A DNA stretch of 34,278 nucleotides, from the NCBI GenBank assembly GCA_945877625.1, contig CAMCSF010000006.1, positions 1 through 34,278 of the forward strand. Reading direction: 5' to 3'. Shown here in pieces: positions 30,745-34,278 of the stretch (its first letter is position 1; each line of letters begins with the position of its first letter). Both the position numbers and the translations under genes were made by a program. The DNA is from Methylomonas koyamae (GTDB taxonomy: Bacteria; Pseudomonadota; Gammaproteobacteria; Methylococcales; Methylomonadaceae). Below the pieces are notes generated by a model. The model ran no database searches. It was given only the letters and a program-made list of their open reading frames with translations, and was not told the origin of the DNA.

Positions 30745-30936
30745 ATGCAGTTTATAAAATTGAAAGACGTATTAAAGCAAACCGGATTATCGCGTTCCCA
30801 TCTCTATCATCTGATGTCGGTTAATCGCTTCCCAGCGCAAATCAAAATCAGCCATAAGGTCGTGGTTTGGTTAAATCAAGATATTGAGCAATGGATGCAG
30901 GAACGGATTGAAGAACATCGCACAATCACGATGTAA
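30745..30936 (+). CDS. AlpA-family regulator/excisionase-like protein
   Basis: 63 residues. GGAGG at 30736-30740 sits four bases before ATG 30745. FIKLKDVLKQTGLSRSHLYH is the winged-helix (MerR-like) recognition part, and FPAQIKISHKVVVWLNQDIEQWMQERIEE is the canonical AlpA wing and tail. In P4-like satellites and ICEs such proteins activate integrase or excision genes. It is followed by an 8-bp hairpin and then the replication gene. Confidence 0.88.
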   Translation: MQFIKLKDVLKQTGLSRSHLYHLMSVNRFPAQIKISHKVVVWLNQDIEQWMQERIEEHRTITM

Positions 30937-30941
30937 AAAAA

Positions 30942-30963
30942 TGGGCTGATGGATGTCAGCCCA
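30942..30963 (+). terminator. hairpin after the AlpA-like gene
   Basis: TGGGCTGA (30942-30949) pairs with TCAGCCCA (30956-30963), loop TGGATG. There is no T-run after it, so it may attenuate rather than end transcription into the replication gene. The following 120 bases hold no convincing gene. Confidence 0.4.
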
Positions 30964-31084
30964 ATTATAAAGCCAGAGCACAAGGACGGTGCGCTCACTT
31001 TCATGGTAATAGTATTTATCAAATATTAAACGGAATGTCGCCCAACAGTGCTCTTGCTAAAGTCATTTAACAGGAGTTAAAACA

Positions 31085-33637
31085 ATGAAACACAACAAGG
31101 ACGTTATAGAAAACAGTAATCAAAGCCCAATCATTTACTATGTTGATGGTCTTTGCGGCTCAGGTAAGACCTTTGGTCTAGGTCGTTATATCCAGCAATC
31201 GCGCTTACATCAAAAATTCATCATTACAACACCATCTAAAGCGTTAGCAGATCAAATCCATACGCAGCTTAATGGCCTAGGTATTAGTAATTGCCACAAG
31301 ATTTATTCAAGCGATAACCGGTCATCGAATGTACCGGCACAAGTAATGGCAGCTATCAAAATTATCAATGGTTTTGGTCAAGGCGTAATAATCTGCACCC
31401 AGCAAGTTTTCCCTAATATTCACTTTATTGAAAACCGTGAGGAATGGGTGTTAGTGGTTGATGAAATTCCCAAGGTCGATCAATTTGATGCGCCAGCATT
31501 ACCCTATAACCATGGATTAATTGCTCAATACATCAATATCACAGGAACGATTGGTACCGGTCTTTATGCCATTGAAGGCAATGATGGAATAGCAAGAATG
31601 GGTGGGAATGTTGATTCAATCAATGAAATCATTCGCCCCATTATTGAAGACATTTATTCCCAGCACTATCGCTGCTATACCGATAAAACTAATTGGGATC
31701 GATTAGTCGAACAGCATCAAGTCAGTGATGATACTGTTCATGATAAGGGTTATGGCAATGACTTCAACAAGCTGTTTTTCTTGCGATTATTACAACCATC
31801 GATTTACCAAGGCTTCGCTCAAGTCATTATGATGGGTGCCAATTTCCAGCACTCATTACTGTATCGCTACTGGTCAGATTATTGCGATGTTCTGTTTAAG
31901 CCATTTACACCGATTAAACAGCAATTGCGCTATAGCCAATACAGCAATGGCCAGCGATTAACCATTCGTTATTTGCAAGAAGCCGATTGGAGCAAATATA
32001 CAGCGAGCAAAATGGTACAAGGAAAAACTCAGCTGGAATGGTTTGCTGAGAAAATTAGTGGTTTCATGGGAGATCAGCCGTTCATCTATCTGACCAACAA
32101 CACCGATAGCACTGAGTTTGCCAATGGCATCAAGGCACCGGTCATTTCCCATGGCATTAATCAGTTTAGCCATATTCATCACATCTATTTTTCACCGGCA
32201 TTAAACAATCAACCCAAACACACCGCGATGTTGATGGATTTAGGATTTGATGCCGTATTTATTAAACGCTCTATGTCCTATGAAATCGCTCATCAGGCGA
32301 TTATGCGAACTTCACTGCGAAATCCCGCTATCGATACACCGGTGACCGCCGTTGTAGTTGATAAACTCACGGCTGAAGCCATTGCGAGATTATTTCCTGG
32401 ATGCCAAATGGGGGCAATGGAGGGCGTGATCAAAAAAGTGATGGCATTAAGTGAAACCGAAAAGAAAGGCAAAACTCGATTAGCCAAACTCATTGAACTC
32501 AAGGCCTTAAATTCCGTTGTCACTCATACCGCAAGTGCTGCCATTCATCACGAAACAGATGAAATGATGTCTGAGGAAAAATTGTCCACCCATTTCTCTT
32601 ATATAGAATTTAGTGGACAAAATCTCCCAAAACCAGCTGATTTCTTGGATGTTTCATTGGGTGTGTCATTTCTGAGCTCGATTTATAACAAGTCATTGGC
32701 ACAGATCGATAGTACGCCAATGGAATTCGTCAAAACCATGCAATCAATTCATACCAATCACATCATTAGAACCAAAGACGAAAGTATTTTGTTTAATGGC
32801 GTGACCTATAAAACCGAACAATCGCGAGCACTTGATAATGTTGAGTTGGCATCGCTAGTCGTGGTTGATATTGATGACGGCGATTTATCACCGGAAGAAT
32901 TTCACCGGATTTTTACCCAAGAGCATAAGCACAGCTTTTTTATGTGCAATTCCTTCAGTCGAAGTGCCGAAAAGCCCAATAATTACCGCGCTATATTTTT
33001 CATTAACCAAGTTGTCAATGACGAGATTTATCGAGATGTCCAAGCTTATCTGCAACGGATTATTCACCAGTATGGCTACATCACTTGTTGGCCAAAAGAT
33101 CGCGTAATACAGCTAGCGAAAAATCCCAAAGCCCAATTTTCAGGCATTGATTTATCCAAAACTCACACGGCTAGTTTTTTCTATATTCCATGTAAGGTTC
33201 AAGATCGATTGGAATGGTCGTTCTTTTGGCGGGGAAACCTGAAAGATGCTGCTCAGCTGAAACGCTACGCGATTGACGTTGAAAAAGTCATTCAATATGC
33301 GCCAGCAACCACTGAGTTAGCGAAGTTGGTTTATGAATCACCCGTCAAAGTGGGCTGGGATAATCCAAATGACCCAAGGTACACACGCGAAGCCATTAAA
33401 GCCTATATCAAGCAAGGCAACTTCAAACATTTAGGTAGTCATCAAATCTATGGGCATATGGCTGCTGCCATGAACGAGGCCGGATTTACTGAGGCCGATT
33501 TTATAGAGCTGACGCCTCACATTAGCCAGTCTAAAACAGCAAAAGATGCGAGTAAGGTATGGCGTAGTTGGCAGAAATACCAACGCATTAAACGAGGCAC
33601 TCTGTACCATTTATTAGGCATTAAAAAAGCGGGTTAA
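31085..33637 (+). CDS. large helicase/primase-like replication protein of a mobile element
   Basis: 850 residues, with AGGAG seven bases before the ATG. The N-terminal part is a P-loop NTPase of the superfamily-2 helicase type: Walker A DGLCGSGKTF at 21-30, FIITTPSKALADQIH (motif Ia-like) at 45-59 and Walker B VLVVDEIP at 122-129. The middle has no clear assignment. At 591-600 LVVVDIDDGD gives a DxD pair (D595, D597), followed by HSFFMCNSFSRSAEKPNNYRAIFF, which resembles the catalytic core of archaeo-eukaryotic-type primases. The C-terminal helical part may help origin binding. Helicase upstream of primase in one chain is the reverse of the P4 alpha order. Assignment of the primase part is by pattern only. 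Confidence 0.6.
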   Translation: MKHNKDVIENSNQSPIIYYVDGLCGSGKTFGLGRYIQQSRLHQKFIITTPSKALADQIHTQLNGLGISNCHKIYSSDNRSSNVPAQVMAAIKIINGFGQGVIICTQQVFPNIHFIENREEWVLVVDEIPKVDQFDAPALPYNHGLIAQYINITGTIGTGLYAIEGNDGIARMGGNVDSINEIIRPIIEDIYSQHYRCYTDKTNWDRLVEQHQVSDDTVHDKGYGNDFNKLFFLRLLQPSIYQGFAQVIMMGANFQHSLLYRYWSDYCDVLFKPFTPIKQQLRYSQYSNGQRLTIRYLQEADWSKYTASKMVQGKTQLEWFAEKISGFMGDQPFIYLTNNTDSTEFANGIKAPVISHGINQFSHIHHIYFSPALNNQPKHTAMLMDLGFDAVFIKRSMSYEIAHQAIMRTSLRNPAIDTPVTAVVVDKLTAEAIARLFPGCQMGAMEGVIKKVMALSETEKKGKTRLAKLIELKALNSVVTHTASAAIHHETDEMMSEEKLSTHFSYIEFSGQNLPKPADFLDVSLGVSFLSSIYNKSLAQIDSTPMEFVKTMQSIHTNHIIRTKDESILFNGVTYKTEQSRALDNVELASLVVVDIDDGDLSPEEFHRIFTQEHKHSFFMCNSFSRSAEKPNNYRAIFFINQVVNDEIYRDVQAYLQRIIHQYGYITCWPKDRVIQLAKNPKAQFSGIDLSKTHTASFFYIPCKVQDRLEWSFFWRGNLKDAAQLKRYAIDVEKVIQYAPATTELAKLVYESPVKVGWDNPNDPRYTREAIKAYIKQGNFKHLGSHQIYGHMAAAMNEAGFTEADFIELTPHISQSKTAKDASKVWRSWQKYQRIKRGTLYHLLGIKKAG

Positions 33638-33643
33638 TACTGC

Positions 33644-33704
33644 TATAGGGGATACGGTTTGCCTTGTTTAATTAGGGATATCCCGTATTCCCATAGCCAA
33701 GGGA
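33644..33704. repeat. inverted and GGGATA-type repeats after the replication gene
   Basis: CTATAGGGGATACGG (33644-33658) is imperfectly inverted as CCGTATTCCCATAG (33691-33704). GGGATA-like words recur (33650, 33678, 33709). Downstream of a replication gene this could be an origin, or simply a transcription-end structure. Confidence 0.35.
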
Positions 33705-33729
33705 TAAATACGATAAGGAGTAAGACACG

Positions 33730-34071
33730 ATGAAAATAAAGGAAATATTGAGCGACAATCAGTTGTATGAAATGTGGTTATTGATGGCCGATGCAATGTG
33801 GGAAACCTTGGTTGATAACTATTCAGCTAATGATGTGTATGAAGGCTATCCGGTCAGAAGACGGATGGCTGCAAGACCAATTAGACGAGCCCCAATCCAA
33901 CGACCACCGAGAAATTTAATAAGAAAACCCGTTACAGCGCCAGCCAAGCCAGTAAAAAAACCAATGGTATCGAAGAGCCAAACGACAGGGCTAAATCCTA
34001 AGATAGATCCTATGAATGGGCCTAACTTTAAGCTGGATGATAGAAATATTATGCCGCCAGGACAGACCTGA
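33730..34071 (+). CDS. small basic Pro/Arg-rich protein, unknown
   Basis: 113 residues, with AAGGAG nine bases before ATG 33730. Residues 1-38 are helical and acidic (IKEILSDNQLYEMWLLMADA). Residues about 42-85 are rich in Arg, Pro and Lys (RRRMAARPIRRAPIQRPPRN) and likely disordered and nucleic-acid binding. The tail is Gly/Pro/Asn-rich. No family recognised. It is in the same direction as the replication gene and probably co-transcribed. Confidence 0.6.
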   Translation: MKIKEILSDNQLYEMWLLMADAMWETLVDNYSANDVYEGYPVRRRMAARPIRRAPIQRPPRNLIRKPVTAPAKPVKKPMVSKSQTTGLNPKIDPMNGPNFKLDDRNIMPPGQT

Positions 34072-34072
34072 G

Positions 34073-34087
34073 CCGTAAAATTTACGG
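34073..34087. repeat. 15-base perfect palindrome after the small basic gene
   Basis: CCGTAAA and TTTACGG are inverted around one A, starting two bases after the stop codon. It is too short-looped to be a hairpin terminator; a protein-binding site is more likely. Confidence 0.5.
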
Positions 34088-34145
34088 AACGGATAGATTG
34101 AATAATGGGCAAAAGATCCAGCTTTTAAGAATCAGTGAGTCGCTA

Positions 34146-34271
34146 GTTTTCGCGAAAGATTTTTAGGCGTCCTTGCCTAAAAATCAGGCGAAAACAAACG
34201 CGACCGCCAATGCCTGCGGCGGCCCCGATTCGTCCTCGTCACCTCGTTCAGCCCCAGCAAGGGGGCTGAAC
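34146..34271 (+). ncRNA. strongly structured non-coding segment, candidate ncRNA or origin
   Basis: Three hairpins follow each other. The first has an outer stem GTTTTCGC (34146-34153)/GCGAAAAC (34188-34195) around a perfect 11-bp stem GATTTTTAGGC (34158-34168)/GCCTAAAAATC (34175-34185). The second is CCGCC (34204-34208)/GGCGG (34218-34222). The third is a perfect 10-bp stem GTTCAGCCCC (34246-34255)/GGGGCTGAAC (34262-34271). No frame crosses it convincingly. It is GC-richer than its surroundings and runs to the window end. An ncRNA upstream of an unseen gene (for example an OMEGA/HEARO or retron type RNA), or an origin, would fit. The identity is not established. Confidence 0.4.
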
Positions 34272-34278
34272 GTAGGCT

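Follow-up and report, generated by a model that had tools for sequence, protein, structure and literature searches.

Palindrome-associated transposable elements (PATEs) are known from Haloquadratum walsbyi and, in the excerpts of the source used here, have no terminal inverted repeats, carry palindromes near both ends, cause no target duplication, occur in many copies and are of a size that leaves no room for a transposase; their palindromes resemble those of IS605-type transposons and their targets comprise 4-6 bp (PMC3119063). REPs are approximately 21-65 nt long, carry a GTAG-type tag and flank their own tnpA gene, and the REP, REPIN and BIME repeats with RAYT are characterized in the excerpted passages as dispersed hairpins with a short cleavage preference and a suspected trans mobilisation by a Y1 enzyme (PMC8266576, PMC6006769). 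IS200/IS605 elements lack inverted repeats and duplications, have sub-terminal hairpins and insert 3' of a motif on one strand (PMC7290912, PMC6006769), MITEs carry inverted repeats and are often accompanied by duplications (PMC3119063), and HEARO/OMEGA RNA (RF02033) is a structured RNA that is partly transposon-associated (PMC9755519), all as given in the parts of these sources that were available.

Here, we analysed a stretch of 34,278 nucleotides from Methylomonas koyamae (the window), which is all of contig C6 of a draft genome (G000; 2.5 Mb, 289 contigs, 81% complete; C, G and L numbers are our labels for contigs, genomes and loci). At its end lies one copy of a family of non-autonomous elements of Methylococcales, mostly 270-310 bp long, and we are highly confident that this feature is a mobile structured element. 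The PATE traits listed above recur in it; however, no IS605-type transposon with related end palindromes was found among 47 Y1 loci and the IS200-like copies of genome G032, the target consists of one fixed base followed by a base other than G, and the hairpins enclose a conserved core of ~160 nt that covaries. The element resembles the REP/RAYT systems in the traits named for them but, at ~282 nt, has three domains and a left hairpin of ~66 nt as opposed to the 20-40 nt of a REP/RAYT palindrome; GTAG stands beside the left hairpin in 1 of 83 distinct copies (the one on C70 of the own genome) and CGTC in none of the 83, and no cognate RAYT gene flanked by the element was found in the 47 Y1 loci. 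Compared with IS200/IS605, with which it shares sub-terminal hairpins, the absence of inverted repeats and duplications and one-strand insertion, the element contains neither tnpA nor tnpB, its ends differ from those of the IS200-like copies in G032, there is no consistent replichore bias (origins assumed), and its target, read on the minus strand, is limited to C at -4 and a base other than C at -5, as against 4-5 fixed nt. Such a very short target is not unprecedented, because TnpA_REP enzymes are described as cleaving at as little as CT or CA (PMC8266576, in part). The element is, like BOX, RUP, RU and MITE repeats, small, non-coding and interspersed, a comparison made at the sequence level through Rfam only; unlike a MITE of a DDE transposase, it has no inverted repeats and no target duplication, and unlike HEARO/OMEGA RNA it gave no RF02033 covariance-model match in the window or in ten homologous loci. 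We conclude that, within the broad class of non-autonomous repeats with palindromes at their ends, it represents a new family, set apart from PATEs and REPs by its conserved core and its one-base target.

A structured repeat at the contig end

The initial annotation had described positions 34072-34278 as a dense, non-coding and GC-rich array of hairpins, and in these respects it was right. The minimum free energy of the segment is -85.3 kcal/mol compared with a mean of -56.7 in shuffled sequences (z = -6.57; 0/200 shuffles as low), and the inverted repeats could be mapped, the arms of the nested hairpin to 34139-34168 and 34175-34204 and those of the perfect hairpin to 34245-34255 and 34262-34272, so that the latter has 11 pairs rather than the 10 first reported. 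The segment starts after the stop codon of the ORF at 33730-34071. The GC content of 34132-34278 is 0.565 versus 0.421 for the whole window and 0.419 for 33600-34071, and 62 of 3414 windows of 147 bases are at least as GC-rich. The palindrome at 34073-34087, which had been grouped with the hairpins, is present but is part of the flank, as is all of 34072-34131 (AT-rich, GC 0.367); the repeat itself starts at 34132 (Table 1). A tRNA scan found nothing.

Table 1. Features at the end of the window (positions in the window)
Feature	Position	Strand	Basis or remark
Palindrome CCGTAAAATTTACGG	34073-34087	.	Directly after the stop codon of ORF 33730-34071; flank, outside the element
Left 147 of ~282 bases of the dispersed element	34132-34278	+	C45 identity, boundaries, empty sites of homologues
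Domain I, left sub-terminal hairpin with internal loops	34139-34204	.	Count over homologues: 29 pairs, end bases included
Small hairpin GCC-TGC-GGC between domain I and the central domain	34212-34220	.	Alignment of 25 sequences
CCCCGAT, one strand of the stem closing the multi-branched central domain	34223-34229	.	Partner ATCGGGG on C45
Central-domain arm, 11-bp hairpin CGTTCAGCCCC/GGGGCTGAACG	34245-34272	.	Helix 9: double changes in 5/5 pairs

Contig C45 opens with the same 86 bases with which the window closes. In view of this recurrence, the end of C6 is most likely an assembly break caused by the repeat. From the 86-base overlap we infer that the window continues into C45, in which case the remainder of its copy would be C45:87-221. 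The resulting unit of ~282 bases ends with CAGCG at C45:221 and is followed by AATG, consistent with the target rule described below. A second, degenerate copy (75% identity) lies ~17 bases past the first at 239-486 of C45 (L006), making a tandem pair, and a tandem-repeat search on the same locus found no tandem repeat. The own genome also contains a further copy on C70 and fragments on C13, C25 and C88.

Aligned with one another, copies appear as a shared block with abrupt edges and unrelated flanks. The 83 distinct full-length sequences measure 248-309 bp, mostly 280-283, all too short for a transposase gene. In window orientation the element starts with YC(A/G)GNGAG and ends with TTTTCAGCG or CGCAGCG. 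There are no terminal inverted repeats (left YCRGNGAGTCGC, right TTTTCAGCG): the best correspondence between the ends is a 4-base CGCT/AGCG that is set back from the left end and is absent in other types of left hairpin. Instead, palindromes lie close to both ends, domain I with 29 pairs and domain III with 8, and the left hairpin of ~66 nt keeps one shape in at least four sequence types. Identical copies often occur within one genome, for example 5 of the first 6 fetched from G022, and therefore amplification was recent there. At L193 (5832-6227), L225 (1666-2055) and L226 (2182-2481) the element yields ORFs containing ALQVFSASLRKPARRYGYRGLKIF that could be mis-annotated as genes.

Upstream of the element, positions 30745-34071 may form a small satellite-like island, with ORFs for a 63-aa excisionase/regulator-like protein (phrog_2790), an 850-aa protein (phrog_2467) with a weak DEAD match below the Pfam cut-off and a 113-aa orphan. 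We take the 63-aa protein to be AlpA-like. A relative of the 850-aa protein was detected in 1 of 120 other genomes searched (G001); this sole genome had no copy of the element, and a role of the island for the element was rejected.

Insertion sites and distribution

Mobility itself is directly evident from empty alleles. Ten joined flank pairs were queried, and the five sites with near-full-length empty matches were examined; of the other five, three gave weaker or partial matches and two gave none. Over the five sites, 13 empty alleles were fetched or listed, and at each site the empty allele is one base shorter than the joined flanks, the absent base being the first of the element (Y). Insertion is thus clean: target bases are neither duplicated nor lost, and there is no shared core dinucleotide. 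Some alignments set the gap a few bases off, and the match lengths from the flank-pair query agree with clean insertion. One of the five sites is a sequence that is repeated within the same genome.

The insertion sites share a very short target. Of 125 distinct sites, 117 have G at +4 past the right end (P = 5e-63 assuming independent sites; background 0.236), as did most sites of earlier subsets (50/52 and 80/85), and only 7 have G at +5; on the left side no position is fixed. Read in window orientation, these sites define the target N|NNNG(not G), which on the minus strand becomes 5'-(not C)-C-N-N-N|. Among the eight sites that break the +4 rule, one has a decayed right end and in another the end is set one base off. 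Read by eye in distant genomes, the rule holds in 12/12 copies of G111, G090, G152 and G081, in both readable copies of G157 and in 3/3 copies of G078 only with the end set one base inside the shared block; this reading leaves out G053, G146 and G063, in which the copies could not be aligned, and G105, in which the right end was not resolved. In a coarse test, 44 of 85 insertion sites are spanned by a stop-free stretch of at least 150 codons compared with 66 of 170 control positions, and insertions within open frames are evenly divided between the two orientations (22 in each).

At the DNA level, matches were obtained in 36 of 101 genomes, including the window's own, and among these in 25 of the 36 other genomes of the same genus. 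Named matches to one internal pattern belong to Methylomonas (SURF-1, methanica, fluvii, koyamae, WSC-7) and to one Methylococcaceae MAG. A covariance model of 161 positions (R1) matched 142 of 251 Methylococcales genomes, covering 36 of 48 genera (E <= 0.001), with copy numbers that are lower bounds (at most 11 candidates scored per genome). In a phylum-wide sample it matched 1 of 398 genomes, which is the window's own, and none of the 397 others; both surveys used stricter filters at which weak matches are lost. Ten genomes searched more fully contain 3 to 30 R1 matches each. Four plasmid records, of Methylomonas, Methylobacter and Methyloprofundus, carry the element, and the 288,757-bp plasmid CP157006.1 of Methylomonas sp. 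AM2-LC is unusually dense with eleven matching places. The element was not matched in a phage collection nor, by one exact pattern, in viral contigs, and the titles listed in searches of the open-licence literature revealed no such repeat for Methylomonas or Methylococcales.

Conserved fold, mobilisation and rival explanations

Covariation among the homologues is strong. RNAalifold on 26 diverse full-length copies gave 41 pairs, 24 of them with compensatory double changes. In the central domain, read on the minus strand in 25 copies, 19 of 41 pairs show double changes (0/500 shuffles), 95.3% of cells pair compared with 89.1% in shuffles, and the signal collapses when the partners are slid; in two copies the stem that closes this domain carries the compensatory CCCTGG/CCAGGG. 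The two end hairpins were scored on a structure obtained from individual sequences: double changes affect 21 of 37 pairs, compared with 12.5 in shuffles, and this signal, too, drops when partners are slid. The double-change count and the covariation score are each matched by 0/500 shuffles, the number of pair types by 18/500. In the right hairpin, double changes are limited to 2 of the 8 pairs. The shuffles ignore the relatedness of the copies, for which the slid controls correct in part. Conservation of the fold through compensatory changes is seen for the left hairpin and the multi-branched core and is weaker for the right hairpin. Concerning the strand, the alifold energy is -61.8 for the minus strand and -35.5 for the plus strand, and the minus-strand structure has 116 G-U versus 16 A-C cells; since the plus-strand structure gives 24 versus 17, this bias stems partly from the choice of structure. 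These folding results are compatible with an RNA as well as with a single DNA strand.

Combining the insertion data with the fold, we suggest that the element is non-autonomous, palindrome-ended and moved in trans by an HUH/Y1-type enzyme, which is the best explanation as a whole and to which we give an even chance; the trans-acting single-strand HUH-type mechanism as such is put forward tentatively, at slightly less than that. In this model, the element would move as a folded single strand corresponding to the minus strand of the window, proposed because the wobble-rich fold is found on this strand and the target lies directly 5' of its first base. Its excision and insertion would be the work of a single-strand transposase of the HUH/Y1 type provided in trans, as has been proposed for PATEs and REPs, and the conserved core may be a folding or binding platform. 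The model is based on the absence of inverted repeats and of duplication, the hairpins near the ends and the target 5' on the best-folding strand, which are traits of single-strand HUH/Y1 transposition and of PATEs.

The searches for such an enzyme bear on this model. A search for an autonomous version with the right-end pattern in seven genomes returned 78 exact right ends, 77 of which are on an element (66 of the 67 right ends read in flanking sequence, the other 11 assigned by sequence matches), and no autonomous relative was found among them. At the 78th (L172, in G013), the final 70 bases of a copy adjoin a 442-aa transposase (Pfam DDE_Tnp_1_4), presumably IS1380-like, which we read as a second transposon that probably cut off the copy. 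Y1 genes occur in 16 of 17 genomes searched, and the only genome without one (G020) also lacks the element; Y1 genes being so common, their presence says little, and G007, G016 and G035 have Y1 genes with the element absent or present as one weak copy. By blastn, the 47 fetched Y1 loci, which are part of all Y1 matches, contain element ends only in three complete inserted copies and in a single degraded left hairpin (L199), and no Y1 group is common to the copy-rich genomes among the loci fetched. The single Y1 protein of G083 has 41-42% relatives in G000, G028 and G033 and a 33% relative in G022, with matches of ~20-27% in the loci fetched from G013, G018, G032, G011 and G009, which do not include all of their Y1 genes. 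A Y1 gene adjoining a copy in L224 (G022:C1:2383500-2387500) encodes a Y1 protein (21.8 bits, cut-off 23), RAYT-like, and was rejected as the mobiliser, as it belongs to its own GTAG REP array; the copy at this locus is inserted into that array and is among the few sites without G at +4. Likewise, the IS200-like genes of L225 and L226 (G032) were rejected, their ends being unlike those of the element. G032 also harbours a second, unrelated dispersed repeat of ~265 bp at 977-1234 and 2427-2693 of L225, with copies that are ~89% identical and one of them inverted; another copy lies at 2556-2821 of L210.

Lagging-strand transposition predicts a replichore bias. Orientation relative to the replichore is 44/108 if position 1 is taken as the origin, without a clear bias, and the best replichore split is reached by 19/500 shuffles in G018 and G078 and by 71-500/500 in six other genomes (origins assumed). 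We count against the HUH model the lack of a clear bias, of an autonomous relative and of a common Y1 group, the 8 of 125 rule-breaking sites and a one-base target that is looser than IS605-type targets.

Compensatory changes and wobble pairs on one strand, together with clean insertion and the occurrence of reverse transcriptases in 17 of 21 genomes, would also suit a structured minus-strand RNA that enters its target through reverse splicing or the action of a reverse transcriptase. We consider this route unlikely: G041, with at least 11 copies, has no RVT_1 match, which weakens the reverse-transcriptase variant, and G083 has only a 41-position RVT_1 fragment, whereas the splicing variant meets with no group I or II intron match in Rfam (window and ten loci), no sign of splicing in the 22:22 orientation within open frames, and a single fixed base in place of extended target pairing. 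Similarly unlikely is the bolder proposal of a mobile RNA or folded single-strand element whose conserved core aids its own mobilisation, for instance an RNA inserting at any 5'-CNNN| site with a host enzyme that it recruits; if true, this would be a non-coding mobile class distinct from introns, retrons, bridge-RNA and OMEGA elements. The conservation of the fold across the order could alternatively reflect a host regulatory or structural repeat (a terminator, mRNA stabiliser or protein-binding RNA) that is spread by recombination and kept for its function, and several minus-strand loops carry, by eye, GGA motifs, which we take to be putatively reminiscent of CsrA/RsmA sites. Precise de novo insertion, the identical copies within a genome, the many relatives without the element and, in the coarse test above, the lack of avoidance of open frames make this explanation distinctly improbable. 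Short, non-coding and often identical copies would also fit a MITE mobilised by a DDE transposase, or else an IS110, IS607 or tyrosine-recombinase type of non-autonomous element; with no long terminal inverted repeat, and with neither target duplication nor a shared core dinucleotide at the five empty-allele sites, we regard this explanation as very unlikely.

The candidates of the initial annotation, namely an OMEGA/HEARO RNA, a retron or a replication or transfer origin, were suggested by dense structured non-coding DNA. This structured feature is true, and the candidates proposed for it are most probably wrong; taken together we leave them only the slightest probability. The covariance-model search against Rfam gave no match at gathering for the window, and the ten homologous loci, at E up to 5, gave only two weak matches, below the cut-off, to a viral frameshift element and nothing relevant to OMEGA/HEARO; nor was a linked nuclease noticed. 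For a retron, there were no RVT_1 matches in the own draft genome (81% complete) or in G041. An origin is at odds with near-identical copies at many unrelated places of one chromosome, and the gene beyond the window that was expected to decide the matter has no fixed counterpart, as the flanks vary from copy to copy in the alignments made.

Significance for Methylococcales

As far as the open-licence titles listed in our searches show, the element founds a new family of structured mobile repeats, unusual in combining a one-base target rule with a large covarying core. Its members are spread widely through an order of methane oxidisers of environmental importance and have been active there recently. 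Contig breaks, spurious small ORFs and gene disruptions in Methylococcales genomes can be accounted for by the element. The family provides a natural test case for the mobilisation of REP-like elements without a transposase of their own.
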